Below, in pieces: positions 11,969 to 41,955 of a DNA stretch of 54,365 nt (the stretch's first letter is position 1; each line of letters begins with the position of its first letter). Location: the NCBI RefSeq assembly GCF_001076885.1, contig NZ_JVDT01000292.1, forward strand, positions 14,272-68,636, given 5' to 3'. A program made the translations under genes and the position numbers. This DNA is from Bacillus sp. 522_BSPC (GTDB taxonomy: Bacteria; Bacillota; Bacilli; Bacillales; Cytobacillaceae). The notes beneath the pieces are model-generated. The model saw only the letters and a program-made list of their open reading frames with translations. It made no database searches and was not told where the DNA came from.

Positions 11969-12004
11969 ACAGTTACTTACAACGAAAGGGATGATGGGTG
12001 AACG

Positions 12005-12016
12005 ATGAAGAACTAA
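12005..12016 (+). CDS. Putative three-codon leader ORF (MKN) of vmlR
   Basis: ATG-AAG-AAC-TAA is preceded by GATGGGTGA, a partial match to the ribosome binding consensus at suitable distance. Its last codons overlap ACTAATC (12012-12018), the 5' arm of a stem in the leader. A drug-stalled ribosome here would cover that arm. Very short leader ORFs are known in other antibiotic-resistance attenuators. Translation of this one is inferred from position and the RNA pairing only. Confidence 0.45.
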   Translation: MKN

Positions 12017-12234
12017 TCTTATTTTTCAACAATTTGAATGAAAAAATTTCAAATTAACCAAAAATAGGATTAGTCTGCCCATTTTCATATAACGCTTTTC
12101 TGTGTATATCTCTAATGGTATGCGCACAATTAGTGGTCGATATGCACGGTTTTTTTGTATATGATCATGATTGGGAACGAGCGGATAATTAGGTACGGCT
12201 AATCCTTCCAAGGAAAATTGGGAGGATTTTTTTT
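12012..12234 (+). promoter_or_regulatory. Transcription attenuator of vmlR
   Basis: Two exclusive pairings can be read. In one, ACTAATC (12012-12018) and the T run after it pair with AAAATAGGATTAGT (12061-12074). In the other, AGGATTAG (12066-12073) pairs with CTAATCCT (12199-12206), which is also the 5' arm of the terminator. That terminator is AATCCTTCC (12201-12209) with GGGAGGATT (12220-12228) followed by eight T, 28 bases before vmlR. A ribosome held on the leader ORF would free AGGATTAG to break the terminator. The logic is inferred from base pairing. Confidence 0.72.
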
Positions 12235-18000: not shown

Positions 18001-18134
18001 TAAGGTGTTAAAGGCAAATTCATCGAAAGGTGAAGACGCAAAGCTATAGGGACTAAGATCTTGGAGATTAAGTCAGCCAGTTACCGATTTATCTTTATAA
18101 ACGGAAGGCTAATCGGAAGAAGATTAGTTTTTTT
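18001..18134 (+). ncRNA. c-di-GMP-I riboswitch with terminator
   Basis: The aptamer (about 18001-18086) contains the conserved GEMM pieces in order: AAAGGCAAA, the GAAA-capped hairpin TTCATCGAAAGGTGAA, GACGCAAAGC, a second hairpin GACTAAGATC...GATTAAGTC, and CAGCCAG. A terminator follows: CTAATC (18109-18114) with GATTAG (18122-18127) and seven T. CCGATT (18084-18089) can pair with AATCGG (18111-18116) as an antiterminator, and it adjoins the aptamer's closing 3' strand. Ligand binding should then favour termination, an OFF switch. This direction is inferred. Confidence 0.88.
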
Positions 18135-36908: not shown

Positions 36909-38120
36909 TTATTCGTTAATCAAGCTTTCTTGTTTAATTTCGACAGACTCATTCTTTAAATAGTGTAATGCTGCAGTTCCTAGTGTCTTGGCTGCGATTA
37001 AAAGTGACCGCTCATCAATATTGAATCTAGGATGATGATGTGGATATACTTCTTTCCAATTAGGATCCATGGCACCTGTAAAGAAGAAGGCGCCTTTTAC
37101 ATGCTGTAAGTAGTATGCGAAATCTTCTCCGCCCATAAGTGGATCACAAATTCTTACTTGTTGCACTTCTTCTATTTGTTCTGCATGCTTGATAATAAAG
37201 TCTGTTTCTTCTTGATGGTTCACAACAGCAGGATAGCCACGTTTAAAACGATAATCATAAGTTGCATCAACCATCTCACAGGATGCCTTGATGACATTTC
37301 CAATTTCCTTCTCGATTAAGTCACGAGCTTCATCGTGGAATGTTCGCGCTGTTCCGCTTAATTTTACAGTATCAGCAATAACATTAAAGGGATTCTGCGC
37401 TTCAAAGCTACCAATAGAAACAACAGCAGGGTGTAATGGATTTACTCTTCTTGAAACAATTTGCTGTACATTTGTAATAAATTGGGCACCAATCATAATC
37501 GCGTCTTTCGTCATATGTGGCTCGGATCCGTGGCCGCCCTTTCCTTGAATGGTAATATCGAATTGGTCGGCAGCTGCCATAATAGGACCTGCGTTAATCA
37601 TAATATTTCCAAGTGGTTCTGTTGCCCATAGATGGGTACCGAAAATAACATCCACCCCTTCTAAACATCCATCCTCAATCATTGCAATCGCACCACCTGG
37701 AGATAGCTCTTCCGCAAATTGATGAATAAAGACAATGGTTCCTTCGAAGTCTGCCTGCAGCTTGTTTAATGCTTTTGCTAATACTAATAAAGTAGCAGTA
37801 TGACCGTCATGGCCACATGCATGCATGACCCCATCTACTTTAGATTTATAAGGAATATCATTTTCTTCCTGGATGGCAAGTGCGTCAAAGTCTGCCCGTA
37901 ATGCAACTGTTTTACCTGGTTTGTTCCCTCTTAGTGTAGCAACTACACCGCGACCACCAACGCCAGTTCTAACTTCATGCCCTAATTTTTGATGATATTC
38001 TGCAATATAAGCAGGTGTATATACTTCGTGATAGGATAATTCTGGATGTTCGTGAAGATGACGACGAATTTCAATCATCTCCTGTTCGTATTCTTTTAAG
38101 AGTGAAAATAAAGCTTCCAT
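36909..38120 (-). CDS. M20-family amidohydrolase (AbgB/HipO-like)
   Basis: A 403-residue metallo-amidohydrolase that removes an acyl or aryl group from an amino acid or peptide. Metal ligands are visible in MHACGHDGHTA and in the GGEDFAYYLQ segment; ELSPGGA carries the catalytic Glu region. The lid domain is present (IQGKGGHGSEPHMTKD). It lies downstream of an AbgT-type transporter in the same direction, so both may import and split aminobenzoyl-glutamate-like or other amide compounds. The exact substrate is unknown. GAGGGG precedes the ATG. Confidence 0.9.
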   Translation of the reverse strand: MEALFSLLKEYEQEMIEIRRHLHEHPELSYHEVYTPAYIAEYHQKLGHEVRTGVGGRGVVATLRGNKPGKTVALRADFDALAIQEENDIPYKSKVDGVMHACGHDGHTATLLVLAKALNKLQADFEGTIVFIHQFAEELSPGGAIAMIEDGCLEGVDVIFGTHLWATEPLGNIMINAGPIMAAADQFDITIQGKGGHGSEPHMTKDAIMIGAQFITNVQQIVSRRVNPLHPAVVSIGSFEAQNPFNVIADTVKLSGTARTFHDEARDLIEKEIGNVIKASCEMVDATYDYRFKRGYPAVVNHQEETDFIIKHAEQIEEVQQVRICDPLMGGEDFAYYLQHVKGAFFFTGAMDPNWKEVYPHHHPRFNIDERSLLIAAKTLGTAALHYLKNESVEIKQESLINE

Positions 38121-38166
38121 GTTACTTACCCCTCATTTCCATTTTTTTAAAATTATATGTAGCATG

Positions 38167-38187
38167 GCAACCTAAATTTCAGGTTGC
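38167..38187 (-). other. Intercistronic hairpin between abgT-like and M20 genes
   Basis: GCAACCT (38167-38173) and AGGTTGC (38181-38187) form a perfect 7-bp stem with a seven-base loop. It lies in the 85-base gap and may lower expression of the second gene or stabilise the first message. There is no T run. Confidence 0.55.
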
Positions 38188-38205
38188 ACATGGTGAATGT
38201 CTAAA

Positions 38206-39762
38206 TTATTTTAAGAAGATAGGGTCTCCTGGTCCTAATGGAAGTCCACATAAATACCAGACTGAGAACAATAAAATCCAACTAATCGCAAAGAAGATAG
38301 AATAAGGAAGCAATGCTGATATTAGAGTTCCAATCCCAATCGACTTATCGTGTTTTCTAGCAAAAGCTAAAAGGATCGCAAAGTAGGCAAGCATTGGTGT
38401 GATTGGATTTGTGATAGAATCTCCAATTCGATAAGCCATTTGCGTTAATGCTGGGCTATAGCCTAAATACATAAACATCGGAACAAAGATTGTAGATAGT
38501 AATGCCCATTTTGCAGATGCGCTGGCAATTAATAGATTAATAAACGAACAAATAATGATGAAACCAATAATCATTGGCAGACCAGTAAAGTTCATCGCTT
38601 GAAGCAATTCTGCACCTTTAATCGCAAGAATCGGACCAATATTGCTCCAGCTAAAGTAAGCAATCATTTGTGCAGCGACAAAAGCTAGCACGATAAACGG
38701 AGCTAAGTCTGCAATGGATTTAAATAGTTTTTCCGCAATATCTTTATCACTTTTAACCGTTTTAGAGCCAATACCATATGCTAAAGCAGGTAATAAAAAG
38801 AAAAATAGCATGAGTGGAACGATTGAGGACATAAATGGCGAGTTAATAACAGAGCCTGTCTCTAAATCGCGTAGCCAACCATTTCTTGGAATAACCATTA
38901 ATAAAATGACAGCTAAATAGATGATTAAGGTAATACCGGCAAAACGTAATCCTCTTTTTTCATTTGCAGTTACTTGCTCTAGTTGTTGTACTACACCTGT
39001 GTATTTACCAAAGCGAGGTTCCACAAATTTTACGGTAACCCAAGTAGTGACAGCAACTAATAAAAAGGTAGAAATGATTAAGAAATAATAATTCATCGTA
39101 GGATTTCCAACATAATTAGGATCTACCGTTTTTGCAGCTTGTTCTGTAATACCGGCTACTAATACATCTAAAGAATTAAGAATCAGATTTGCACTATAGC
39201 CACCAGCAATAGCTGCATAAGTGGCAATAAGACCCACAATAGGACTTCTTCCCACACTCATAAAAATAAGCGCTGCAATTGGTGGGAACACGATAAATGC
39301 CGCATCTGCTGCAATATTGCCAAGGACTCCTGTTAAAACAATAACAGGAAGGATTAATTTTTTTGGTGCACTTAACACCGTTCTTTTCATAACCGTTTGA
39401 ATAAGACCTGTCGTTTCTGCAAGACCAACCCCTAGCATAATGACTAATACTAGTCCAAATGGAGGGAAGGAAGTAAAGTTGCTCACCATACTTGTTAAGA
39501 TTTGAATAATACCTTCTCGATTCAGTAAATTAACTACTTCAATAGTCTCGCCTGAGCTAGGATTAGTAGCAGAGACACCAATTAAAGATAGTAAATAAGA
39601 AGCGACTAAAATAATGGCTGACATGATGACAAACAAGGTAATAGGATCAGGTAACTTATTACCTGCACGTTCAATGATGTTTAAAAACTTGTCCACTAGT
39701 TTTGTTTTACTAGGCGGTGTTGGTTCGGCATAGTTTGGATGTTTTTTTGCAAGTTCGCTCAT
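38206..39762 (-). CDS. AbgT-family transporter
   Basis: A 518-residue membrane protein with about 11-13 helices and hairpins, of the AbgT family (VDKFLNIIERAGNKLPDPITLF at the N-terminus; GGYSANLILNSLDVLVAGITEQAA; PALTQMAYRIGDSITNPITPM). E. coli AbgT takes up p-aminobenzoyl-glutamate; other members export sulfonamides. Pairing with an M20 amidohydrolase favours uptake and hydrolysis of an amide. It is the first gene of the pair, with AGGT-rich site before the ATG. The 227 bases upstream show no cre or TnrA box. Confidence 0.9.
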   Translation of the reverse strand: MSELAKKHPNYAEPTPPSKTKLVDKFLNIIERAGNKLPDPITLFVIMSAIILVASYLLSLIGVSATNPSSGETIEVVNLLNREGIIQILTSMVSNFTSFPPFGLVLVIMLGVGLAETTGLIQTVMKRTVLSAPKKLILPVIVLTGVLGNIAADAAFIVFPPIAALIFMSVGRSPIVGLIATYAAIAGGYSANLILNSLDVLVAGITEQAAKTVDPNYVGNPTMNYYFLIISTFLLVAVTTWVTVKFVEPRFGKYTGVVQQLEQVTANEKRGLRFAGITLIIYLAVILLMVIPRNGWLRDLETGSVINSPFMSSIVPLMLFFFLLPALAYGIGSKTVKSDKDIAEKLFKSIADLAPFIVLAFVAAQMIAYFSWSNIGPILAIKGAELLQAMNFTGLPMIIGFIIICSFINLLIASASAKWALLSTIFVPMFMYLGYSPALTQMAYRIGDSITNPITPMLAYFAILLAFARKHDKSIGIGTLISALLPYSIFFAISWILLFSVWYLCGLPLGPGDPIFLK

Positions 39763-39920
39763 ATGTACCTCCGTGTTGTGAAGTGTTTTTGGATTTTTTA
39801 AAATTATACGAATATTTAAGAAAATAATCTATGGAATAAATTCTAAATTTCTTCCTTATTTTTGTGTTCAAATACAAAGAGGTGGTCGGATAGAGGCTTA
39901 GGAAAGATGCACCTTTACGG

Positions 39921-39949
39921 TTTACAATAAATAAAATATAAAGTAGTAT
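39921..39949 (+). promoter_or_regulatory. Probable promoter of the leader ORF-corA unit
   Basis: TTTACA (39921-39926) and TAGTAT (39944-39949) are 17 bases apart, 40 bases before the leader ORF. The -10 match is moderate. Confidence 0.45.
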
Positions 39950-39989
39950 GTAATAGGTTTAAAGATTACTAGCAAGGAGTTGAATTTTT

Positions 39990-40118
39990 ATGAGTACTCG
40001 AATGTGTATGGAACCTGATCCGGAACCCACGGCCATGAAAGAGGGAGTCATGAATAACCCTTCCTTTAGAAGTTTGAATGCTGATAAAGATTCAACTTTA
40101 TTTGGCAGAGCATTTTGA
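39990..40118 (+). CDS. 42-codon ORF with MgtL-like MEPDPEP motif, upstream of corA
   Basis: A 42-residue ORF with AAGGAG ten bases before its ATG. Residues 7-14 read MEPDPEPT. E. coli and Salmonella MgtL, the leader peptide of the Mg2+ transporter gene mgtA, begins MEPDPTP; its acidic-proline stretch destabilises translating ribosomes at low Mg2+. Here the ORF ends 28 bases before a CorA-type Mg2+ transporter gene, and a hairpin holding the corA ribosome binding site begins three bases after its stop. The rest (MNNPSFRSLN...TLFGRAF) is unfamiliar. A role as Mg2+-sensing leader is inferred; it could also be a small functional protein. Confidence 0.65.
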   Translation: MSTRMCMEPDPEPTAMKEGVMNNPSFRSLNADKDSTLFGRAF

Positions 40119-40119
40119 C

Positions 40120-40139
40120 TTCCTCTAAACAAGAGGAGG
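40120..40139 (+). promoter_or_regulatory. Hairpin sequestering the corA ribosome binding site
   Basis: TCCTCT (40121-40126) pairs with AGAGGA (40132-40137) across a five-base loop and covers most of the corA site AGGAGG (40134-40139). The same TTCCTCT (40120-40126) could instead pair with AGAGGGA (40040-40046) inside the leader ORF, just after the MEPDPEPT codons, which would free the site. The alternative pairing has one G-U pair. The switch is inferred from complementarity. Confidence 0.55.
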
Positions 40140-40146
40140 TAAGAAC

Positions 40147-41085
40147 ATGAGAAAAATTTATATTTCTACTGAAGAAGGAATGCTGAAAGAAACGGATAGC
40201 ATGATGGATGGCTGCTGGATTAATTTAATTGCACCAACAGAAGCAGAAATTACAGAAATTGCTACCGGTTTAGACATTCCATTAGCGTTTATGAAAGATC
40301 CCTTGGATGAAGAAGAGCGTTCAAGAATTGAAAAGGATGGGGAAAATGTCTTAATTATCGTGAATCTCCCCCTTGTTTCCTTTGATGAGAAAAGTATGCC
40401 TATTTATGACACAATCCCATTAGGTATGATTATTGCCAAGAATTGCTTTATTACGGTTTGCTTAAAGGATAATCCGATATTTTACCAGTTTTCTGAAGGC
40501 AGAATGAAGAGCTTTTTTACGTATAAAAAGACACGATTCTCCCTGCAAATATTATACTGTATGGCAACTGCCTATTTAAAATATTTAAAGCAAATTAGCA
40601 AGAAGACAGATACTATTGAAAAAGAACTTCACCAATCTATGAAAAACAAAGAGCTATTTTCCTTGCTTAATATCGAAAAAAGCTTGGTGTATTTTACCAC
40701 TTCCTTAAAATCAAATAATATTGTCATGCAAAAAATGCTCAAAAGCAATTATTTGAAAATGTATGAAGATGATCAAGAATTGCTAGAAGATGTAATTATT
40801 GAGAATCAGCAGGCAATTGAGATGGCTGAAACCCATATGTCTATTTTAAGTGGGATGATGGACGCTTTTGCTTCTGTTATTTCAAATAATGTCAATATTG
40901 TCATGAAATTCTTAACATCTTTCACGATTATTTTGTCATTACCAACAATGGTTGCAAGCTTTTATGGAATGAATGTTCATATTCCATATCAAGATGTACC
41001 ATATTCTTTTACAATTGCGATTATGATTTCCTTCCTATTATCAGGCGTAACTGCTTTGATCTTTTGGAAGAAGCGGTTTTTTTAA
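40147..41085 (+). CDS. corA: CorA-family Mg2+ transporter
   Basis: A 312-residue membrane channel of the CorA family. The N-terminal 240 residues form the cytoplasmic funnel; two C-terminal helices follow (about 250-275 and 285-307). The signature YGMN is present in ASFYGMNVHIP between them, and the C-terminus is basic (FWKKRFF). CorA proteins carry Mg2+, sometimes Co2+ or Ni2+. AGAGGAGGT lies seven bases before the ATG, but in a hairpin, and a MEPDPEP leader ORF precedes it, which points to translational control by Mg2+. No M-box riboswitch is visible. Confidence 0.9.
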   Translation: MRKIYISTEEGMLKETDSMMDGCWINLIAPTEAEITEIATGLDIPLAFMKDPLDEEERSRIEKDGENVLIIVNLPLVSFDEKSMPIYDTIPLGMIIAKNCFITVCLKDNPIFYQFSEGRMKSFFTYKKTRFSLQILYCMATAYLKYLKQISKKTDTIEKELHQSMKNKELFSLLNIEKSLVYFTTSLKSNNIVMQKMLKSNYLKMYEDDQELLEDVIIENQQAIEMAETHMSILSGMMDAFASVISNNVNIVMKFLTSFTIILSLPTMVASFYGMNVHIPYQDVPYSFTIAIMISFLLSGVTALIFWKKRFF

Positions 41086-41109
41086 TAAAGGGGCCTGCTC
41101 GTTGTCTCT

Positions 41110-41139
41110 AACTCCTCCATTTTGAAGTGGAGGAGTTTT
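41110..41139. terminator. Terminator after corA
   Basis: AACTCCTCCA (41110-41119) pairs with TGGAGGAGTT (41128-41137), followed by TTCT. It lies between corA and the convergent AraC-type gene. Confidence 0.8.
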
Positions 41140-41955
41140 CTAATAAAAGGAGCGGAATTCTTTAGGAGTATATCCTGTTTCTTTTTTAAAGGTGGCAACA
41201 AAGTGACTTGTATCATTGAATCCAGTTAGAAAGGTAATGTCTTTTATTTTTACATCTCTTTTTGTAACTAAAATTTCTTTAGCCTTTTTGATTCGATAAG
41301 CAAGTACATATTGATAGACGGAAATGCCAACAAATCGTCTAAAAAGCTTGTTCAAATACTGTGGCGATATAAAGAGCCTTCCTGCTATATCGGAAATATC
41401 ACATTTTTCTCCATAGTTTGTTTCAATCCATTCGATAGTAGGGGAGATATATTGATGATATAAATCATTCTTTTGAAACGTTCTGTGTAAACCATGATCC
41501 CGGATATTTAGTAAGAAGTTATACACGTCAACGGAAAGCTTTTGCTGTACAGAGTTTTTGTTTTCGTTTTTTATATGTGATAACATCCTCTGCGTCCAAT
41601 CACTATAGGAAAAATCAGGACAGTCATTTGCTAGATAGTAAGAGGAAGTACCAAGTATCTCGGCTATACTTGCGGAAAAAGTACCGTTAATTGTCATAAA
41701 GTTTGTGCGCCATCCTTTTGCTGAAATCGATTCATAAAAGTGGGGAACAAATGGTGCGATAAGTATCCCTTCTTGAGGATGCAATTGGATTTTTTCATTT
41801 GCAATCGTTACTTCCCCTAATCCTTCTGCTGTTTGTAGCCAGTGATAGTAAGGATATCCCTCTTCTCTTAAGACCATTGGTTGTTCCCACATATACCCAA
41901 TGCTTTCAATGGAAAAAGGATTGAAATGATCTAGTAAATTAAAATATACTTCCAT
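41140..41955 (-). CDS. AraC-family transcriptional regulator
   Basis: A 271-residue regulator with an N-terminal cupin-like sensing domain (about 1-150; YYHWLQTAEGLGEVTIANEKIQLHPQEGILIAPFVPHFY) and two C-terminal HTH motifs (CDISDIAGRLFISPQYLNKLFRRFVG, IKDITFLTGFNDTSHFVATFKKETG). It is divergent from the GH42 beta-galactosidase gene with 115 bases between, so it probably activates that gene in response to a sugar. AAGGGGA precedes the ATG. Confidence 0.88.
   Translation of the reverse strand: MEVYFNLLDHFNPFSIESIGYMWEQPMVLREEGYPYYHWLQTAEGLGEVTIANEKIQLHPQEGILIAPFVPHFYESISAKGWRTNFMTINGTFSASIAEILGTSSYYLANDCPDFSYSDWTQRMLSHIKNENKNSVQQKLSVDVYNFLLNIRDHGLHRTFQKNDLYHQYISPTIEWIETNYGEKCDISDIAGRLFISPQYLNKLFRRFVGISVYQYVLAYRIKKAKEILVTKRDVKIKDITFLTGFNDTSHFVATFKKETGYTPKEFRSFY

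Follow-up and report, generated by a model that had tools for sequence, protein, structure and literature searches.

In Bacillus sp. 522_BSPC, the corA gene of the window (the whole 54,365-nucleotide stretch of DNA analyzed here) follows a short open reading frame (ORF) that encodes an acidic-proline motif close to its N terminus. We propose, at a probability of about 0.68, that this corA 5' leader acts as a translational attenuator, sensing Mg2+ via its nascent peptide and switching corA on when Mg2+ is low. Computational comparison across relatives establishes the ORF, the conservation of its motif at the protein level, two RNA folds with compensatory changes, the spacing of the motif from the RNA switch, and the modeled accessibility across species. 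Peptide-sensing logic of the mgtQ and mgtL kind is already known; what is new is its setting in the Bacilli and a new target gene. In enteric bacteria, the destabilization of ribosomes by acidic-proline nascent chains is linked to the sensing of Mg2+. If the proposal is true, it would point to a general, repeatedly evolved sensing of Mg2+ through the ribosome itself, would explain corA control in genomes without an M-box match, and would provide a compact setting in which to study how acidic-proline chains are dealt with by Bacillus ribosomes, EF-P, and ABC-F factors.

Locus organization and leader peptide conservation

The leader and its surroundings comprise the following features.

39921..39949, + strand: possible promoter TTTACA-17-TAGTAT, a weak consensus match (9/12)
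39974..39979, + strand: leader ribosome-binding site AAGGAG, read from the sequence and overlapping segment A
39977..39991, + strand: segment A, the leader Shine-Dalgarno (SD) sequence and start codon; predicted OFF-fold partner of C (40084-40098)
39990..40118, + strand: leader ORF of 42 codons with an ATG start, from the ORF listing; protein MSTRMCMEPDPEPTAMKEGVMNNPSFRSLNADKDSTLFGRAF
40011..40028, + strand: EPDPEP codons (residues 8-13), proposed ribosome-destabilizing motif, from [DE]P[DE]P conservation
40041..40049, + strand: segment B (GAGGGAGTC), predicted ON-fold partner of D
40060..40067, + strand: segment B', which resembles D; local OFF-fold partner of B in the minimum free energy (MFE) fold
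40069..40082, + strand: segment C', which resembles A; ON-fold partner of C in predicted folds
40084..40099, + strand: segment C (anti-A), from predicted folds, A:C covariation, and the swap test
40117..40125, + strand: segment D (GACTTCCTC), overlapping the leader stop; predicted to pair with B or E
40132..40140, + strand: segment E, the corA ribosome site (GAGGAGG at 40133-40139), hidden by D in the predicted OFF fold
40147..41085, + strand: corA, a CorA-type divalent cation transporter of 312 aa (Pfam PF01544, E 1.5e-58)

The elements on which the original prediction was built are all present in the sequence, including the 42-codon ORF with MEPDPEPT as residues 7-14, the AAGGAG upstream of it, and a gap of 28 bases between the leader stop and the corA ATG at 40147. 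The GGAG columns of the leader ribosome-binding site are at least 90% kept in an alignment of 66 leaders. The promoter call is weak because the window contains nine such sites and shuffled sequence an average of 6.4. The predicted identity of the downstream gene also holds, as its product scores 198.9 bits against Pfam CorA and carries YGMN; its score against the NCBIfam corA equivalog (121.5 bits) lies under the cut-off of 200.75. A terminator scan found no intrinsic terminator in 39770-41160, and no Rfam family matches the leader at its gathering score, the three matches seen (E 1.4-4.3) lying far under their cut-offs. The source genome, a 5.14 Mb assembly, contains two MgtE matches, no DUF1003 match, and no M-box match in a search whose controls, B. 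subtilis and Lactococcus lactis, were positive. Genes for an AbgT-type transporter and an M20 peptidase, divergent from corA, occupy 36909-39762, and elsewhere the window holds Rfam matches to the Bacillus sRNA ncr1575 (11973-12233) and to a c-di-GMP-I riboswitch (18003-18088).

Of 193 genomes of the family, 118 contain a relative of corA (E <=1e-30), as do 78 of 299 sampled from the order. Leader ORFs were sought, as the original prediction had proposed, in the upstream DNA of 98 of these corA loci, 30 from the family list and 68 from the order list. They are recognized at 87 of the 98, by a loose criterion judged by eye (at least 18 codons, with a start codon and a word resembling a ribosome site), and a [DE]P[DE]P leader is present at all 30 family loci read. 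For part of the loci, the candidate start giving the peptide richest in D/E/P was chosen; a composition-blind start rule gives the same start in 60 of 66 leaders. Eleven of the 98 loci have no adjacent leader (L051, L061-L063, L067, L068, L072-L075, and L098). L051 belongs to this group because an insertion separates its leader, about 1.8 kb upstream, from corA; the 451-codon ORF of this insertion presumably encodes a transposase. At L136 (genome G453), an insertion with an apparently transposase-like ORF parts leader from corA at the corA ribosome site.

A 93% similarity filter reduces the 87 leaders to 66 non-redundant ones, which range from 25 to 55 codons in length and start with ATG (40), TTG (25), or GTG (1). 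The [DE]P[DE]P motif is carried by 46 of the 66, at residues 8-11 in 33, and the exact motif is absent from 20. Variants such as DPDT, PEPE, NPDP, DPEGP, and KPDP keep its chemistry, and 62 of the 66 have at least three D/E/P residues, including an acid and a proline, within residues 3-15; four fail this test. D/E/P content is 0.48 at residues 4-12 and drops to 0.11 at residues 19-33, while in the two other frames it is 0.10 and 0.11 at residues 4-12. In the 33 leaders with the motif at residue 8, the third codon positions of the motif have entropies of 0.52, 1.70, 1.75, and 1.74 bits; these leaders were picked by the motif, so the zero entropy at first and second positions holds by construction, and the codon evidence is limited to the free third positions and the count of 46 in 66. 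D and E interchange within the motif, and together with mostly free third positions this exchange indicates that selection acts on the acidic-proline character of the protein and not on the letters of the RNA.

The leader is thus deeply conserved, more than chance would allow, with ORF and helices recurring in relatives. Of the MEPDPEP unit originally singled out, the [DE]P[DE]P part is conserved and the methionine at residue 7 is not. The acidic-proline motif is the best-kept part of the leader peptide, the reverse of the pattern (motif unconserved, rest of the ORF kept) that had been named as refuting.

Alternative folds of the leader RNA

Across leaders, the recurring segments read A GGAGTTGAT, B GAGGAAGTC, C ATCAACTC, D GACTTCCTC, and E GAGGAGG. 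Two mutually exclusive folds recur in structure prediction and covariation, one predicted to hide and the other to free the corA ribosome-binding site (RBS). The OFF fold consists of A:C enclosing B:B', plus D:E, and is the MFE fold of the window; in the ON fold, B:D encloses C':C and E is unpaired. B' and C' are predicted to complete these two closed folds. The hairpin that the original prediction had placed over the corA site is borne out by pairing of 40118-40126 with 40132-40140, which covers 40133-40139, and so is the alternative pairing, formed by AGAGGGAGTC (40040-40049) with GACTTCCTCT (40117-40126) and including one G-U. For the interval 40112-40152, the folding energy is -13 kcal/mol (z -3.09); the whole leader folds at z -3.24, with none of 200 shuffles as stable.

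Covariation of B:D and D:E had been named as a check, and it is strongly compensatory for B:D and less so for D:E. For B:D, 89.1% of 594 alignment cells are paired, a percentage that none of 500 shuffles reaches; two-sided changes affect eight of nine pairs (one of 500 shuffles as high), and 30 cells change on both sides, against 8.6 in shuffles (0/500). In a closer set of 29 leaders, 97.3% of B:D cells are paired. A:C cells are 84.6% paired, and ten of them change on both sides against 3.4 in shuffles (0/500 for each measure), while 70 of 500 shuffles have at least as many A:C pairs with a two-sided change. Slid A:C structures have 14 and 15 two-sided cells against the true 10, but only 41-46% of their cells are paired against 84.6%. 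D:E is paired in 95.1% of cells (1/500 shuffles), with seven two-sided cells against 1.3 (1/500), C-G replaced by U-A in five sequences, and a number of pairs with two-sided change that 105 of 500 shuffles reach. D:E covaries less because the ribosome site limits its letters, and part of the constraint on this helix comes from the SD itself.

In a swap test, each segment is paired with its own or with permuted partners. Mean duplex energies are -22.3 (own) versus -17.4 kcal/mol (permuted) for B:D, a gain of 4.9, and -19.6 versus -12.5 kcal/mol for A:C, a gain of 7.1, while own partners are better by 0.7 kcal/mol on average for D:E (0/2000 permutations in all three). Among the control combinations, A:D is flat (1245/2000), and B:C and A:B are also slightly better than permuted, by 0.9 (28/2000) and 0.75 (9/2000), so part of the swap signal reflects relatedness; both the shuffle and the swap tests ignore phylogeny. 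Taken leader by leader, a median of 14% (B:D), 6% (A:C), and 30% (D:E) of foreign partners pair more favorably than the leader's own. The interval between B and D folds at a mean z of -1.78 in 61 leaders (24 of them below -2), five leaders with a short interval having been left out. Listeria grandensis and L. rustica (L211 and L212), which score only 20.1 and 15.9 bits with R1, the covariance model built from the 66 corA leaders only, have EPDP leaders whose B and D differ in letters and still pair (-19.0 and -25.7 kcal/mol).

Proposed attenuation mechanism and its rivals

Leader translation, abortion at the motif, the Mg2+ signal, and the sign of control are what we infer from this anatomy. 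In a ribosome-free leader, A:C would hide the leader start and D:E the corA start, leaving corA off. When Mg2+ is ample, ribosomes would pass EPDPEP, move across B and C, and terminate on D; after their release, the tight local D:E hairpin would re-form, giving low, basal corA expression. When Mg2+ is low, ribosomes would pause at the acidic-proline codons or leave the RNA there, while initiating ribosomes hold A, so that bare B could pair with D and C' with C. The B:D pairing would then free E and turn corA on.

The spacing of the leaders is consistent with this scheme. The leading edge of a ribosome lies about 15 nt past the P-site codon. In 34 of the 46 motif leaders, the distance from the first proline codon to B is 16-22 nt (range 8-26), which places B near the reach of a ribosome paused at the motif; in the window, this distance is 25 nt. 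In an accessibility model where only RNA 3' of the ribosome may fold, the corA SD of the 66 leaders has a median accessibility of 0.006 when no ribosome is present; the median is 0.408 if the ribosome edge stands immediately ahead of B, 0.004 once the edge has passed B, and 0.015 if B is shuffled. The edge-before-B value exceeds the no-ribosome, past-B, and shuffled-B values by more than 0.05 in 52, 56, and 55 of the 66 leaders, respectively; in 14 leaders the gain over no ribosome does not exceed 0.05. Placing the first proline in the P site raises accessibility by more than 0.05 over the ribosome-free state in 36 of the 46 motif leaders.

The original claim that abortion at low Mg2+ frees B for D and thereby opens corA thus agrees with the motif conservation, the B:D covariation, the spacing, and the model in 52 of 66 leaders, but the window's own leader departs from it, as the equilibrium model leaves its corA site closed (0.008) with the edge before B. 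The two window folds are nearly balanced (-28.6 versus -27.2 kcal/mol, a difference of 1.4), and in nascent window RNA ending at 40128, before E, the B:D probability is 1.0. With near-equal folds and B:D forming first in the nascent RNA, a kinetic choice of the open fold is possible in the window.

The same anatomy could also operate with the opposite sign: completed leader translation would leave the terminating ribosome on D, D:E would open, corA would become coupled to leader translation, and abortion would lower corA. Of the 66 leaders, 44 have a stop codon that overlaps D, as in the window, and 19 one that lies past it; a finishing ribosome could therefore itself open D:E, and a reversed sign is conceivable. 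Contact of a finishing ribosome with D may account for basal corA expression or, on this rival view, for the opposite sign. We consider such a reversal rather unlikely, as it leaves unexplained the compensatory B:D pairing, the distance of mostly 16-22 nt from the motif to B, and the exposure predicted before B and not after it, and as it would lower a Mg2+ importer at low Mg2+. Unlikely, too, is an attenuator of this design that responds to another signal, such as prolyl-tRNA charging, EF-P/ABC-F activity, polyamines, or general ribosome stress. The proline codons within the motif would suit such a signal, the mgtP ORF in the mgtCBRU leader of Salmonella responds to charged tRNA-Pro (in the accessible text of PMC8092293), and EttA relieves pausing at acidic residues in E. 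coli (in the accessible text of PMC11282234). Acidic residues are nevertheless kept alongside the prolines, with D and E exchanging, the controlled gene is CorA, the leader adjoins an M-box in two genomes, and five leaders before DUF1003 genes keep an ESD stretch without a P-acid-P repeat, all of which speak against another signal.

Conserved alternative folds are also what a metal-sensing riboswitch would display, with the RNA itself binding Mg2+ and the ORF incidental. We regard this as very unlikely given that the alignments, inspected by eye, contain no conserved unpaired core, that helix letters change (as in the two Listeria leaders), and that motif codons are mostly free at third positions. 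Short ORFs are plentiful in this DNA (51 of at least 25 aa within 6.5 kb), so the possibility that this one arose by chance within a structured 5' UTR has to be weighed; the conservation of start, frame, motif, and spacing, and the occurrence of the leader model in 16 families of the order, refute it almost to the point of certainty.

By analogy, the leader proposed here to sense Mg2+ would work like mgtQ with the motif of MgtL, and published descriptions set it apart from both. In Salmonella, as described in the available sections of PMC8092293, acidic residues of mgtQ lower translation of this upstream ORF (uORF) and raise the transporter at the translational level, with a helix 2:3 replacing 1:2 and 3:4, the latter of which hides the transporter RBS. 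The closest known counterpart of the present leader is mgtQ of the mgtCBRU operon, with which it shares a short ORF with acidic residues immediately ahead of a Mg2+ transporter gene, the exclusive helices, the hidden RBS of that gene, and the putative translational level of control. In contrast, mgtQ is intergenic and has eight codons, its proline codon acts via RNA pairing, and its gene is mgtB (same sections), whereas the present leaders have 25-55 codons, form a corA 5' leader in Bacilli, and carry their acid-proline stretch typically at residues 8-11. MgtL of enteric mgtA undergoes ribosome drop-off at EPDP at low Mg2+, which turns the gene on, according to the portions of PMC11282234 and PMC11552253 available. 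The two leader peptides, each preceding a Mg2+ transporter gene, have EPDP close to their N termini in common, here at residues 8-11, but the MgtL acids in these portions are Glu2 and Asp4, and the control there is Rho-dependent transcription termination, while here a predicted hairpin hides the RBS. CorL of enteric corA, in the accessible part of PMC11552253, is likewise a Mg2+-responsive uORF before corA whose translation lowers corA; it is Rho-dependent and has few proline or acidic residues. The leader of the Bacilli has apparently arisen separately from those of enterics. In Mycobacterium tuberculosis, an M-box and a conserved uORF before pe20 similarly combine a Mg2+ regulator with a uORF, but there the M-box controls the uORF, whose role is given as unclear in the accessible text of PMC12810186. 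Within the open-access literature, to which our search was largely confined (most subscription papers lie outside it), no description of an acidic-proline corA leader in Bacillota was found; corA does not occur in PMC11109978, and PMC4448311 names yfjQ once, in a table.

Distribution, the M-box, and DUF1003 genes

The R1 leader occurs in 73 of 299 order genomes under 16 family labels, these genomes having been taken by hand from matches above 37 bits. A class search of 398 genomes adds four matches of at least 50 bits outside the order (G481, G514, G530, and G658), and a phylum search of 309 genomes gives no R1 match above 31 bits except the window's own. Among named corA loci, 40 of the best 80 of a longer list have R1 scores of at least 53 bits, including those of Geobacillus thermocatenulatus, G. 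jurassicus, Anoxybacillus, Parageobacillus, Neobacillus, Peribacillus, Metabacillus, Rossellomorea, Paenibacillus prosopidis, Sporolactobacillus, and Tuberibacillus. The Pseudomonas title of one record (L206, Pseudomonas sp. ISL-84) is probably wrong, as its leader is nearly identical to that of Bacillus sp. J33 (L204). Among matches below 34 bits, seven from the order search (G220, G309, G355, G201, G406, G197, and G348) and six from the class search (L159-L162, L164, and L165) were inspected by eye, and none of these proved to be a leader. A 36-bit match in G312 (L135) has an EPDPDP-like start, no clear D:E, and no corA listed; it is not counted and is apparently a decayed relic.

The M-box (ykoK, RF00380) controls Mg2+ transporter genes including corA, according to the available portion of PMC4072509, and differs from the present leader in being a ligand-binding RNA; no covariance-model match to it occurs at the window or the leader (leader E up to 5). 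In genomes G203 and G248, an M-box and the peptide leader stand in tandem before the same corA, the aptamer (160 bits; L054 1103-1271 and L142 1329-1497 (minus strand)) ending 43-44 nt ahead of the leader and separated from it by a stem-like stretch. This arrangement places two regulators in series. Two further genomes (G042 and G047) have a 41-43%-identical corA with an M-box about 320-350 nt upstream. The M-box occurs in only 70 of the 299 order genomes sampled, and five of these share it with the leader against 17 expected from 73 and 70 genomes (Fisher p 5e-5, uncorrected for phylogeny). At the family level, where the M-box is found in 24 of 193 genomes, there is no anti-correlation of M-box and corA: the M-box is present in 14 of the 118 genomes that have a corA match and in 10 of the 75 that lack one. 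The case for Mg2+ as the signal is circumstantial, and the tandem arrangement is its best part.

The R1 leader also stands directly before a DUF1003 gene at all eight loci checked for this (G478, G393, G437, G368, G251, G514, G658, and G530), a count that leaves out two further R1 genomes, G214 and G416; in G481, which is outside the order, the leader precedes corA. These DUF1003 genes score 112-126.5 bits in Pfam against a cut-off of 27.4, and at their loci (L130-L134, L149, L155, and L156) they encode membrane proteins. Three of the DUF1003 leaders carry VPEP, NPDP, or DPSP, while the five with the ESD stretch read PSIxESD followed by a PT-EEV-like stretch and are acidic. In the open-access literature searched, two papers mention DUF1003, neither of them alongside magnesium. 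If the proposed sensing is true, DUF1003 would gain a testable role, as NrmT did through the M-box in the accessible text of PMC4072509.

Taken jointly, these observations may mean that Bacilli independently evolved widespread nascent-peptide Mg2+ sensors based on intrinsic ribosome destabilization, which stand in for the M-box in some lineages and govern both corA and DUF1003, that DUF1003 is an unrecognized player in Mg2+ homeostasis, and that the principle arose several times, as yet another acidic-proline corA leader (MDSGPE) in Clostridia would imply. We hold this combined reading to be possible, at somewhat less than an even chance.

At several clostridial corA loci (L217, L218, L233, L239, L240, L242, L244, and L245), another short leader ORF is present that starts with MD[SN]GPE or similar, as in MDSGPEHSC, MDNGPERSC, MDSDPN, and MESGPSPE. 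The pattern used to find these leaders required D or E at residue 2, and the MD[SN]GPE type is possibly a separate type of acidic-proline leader.
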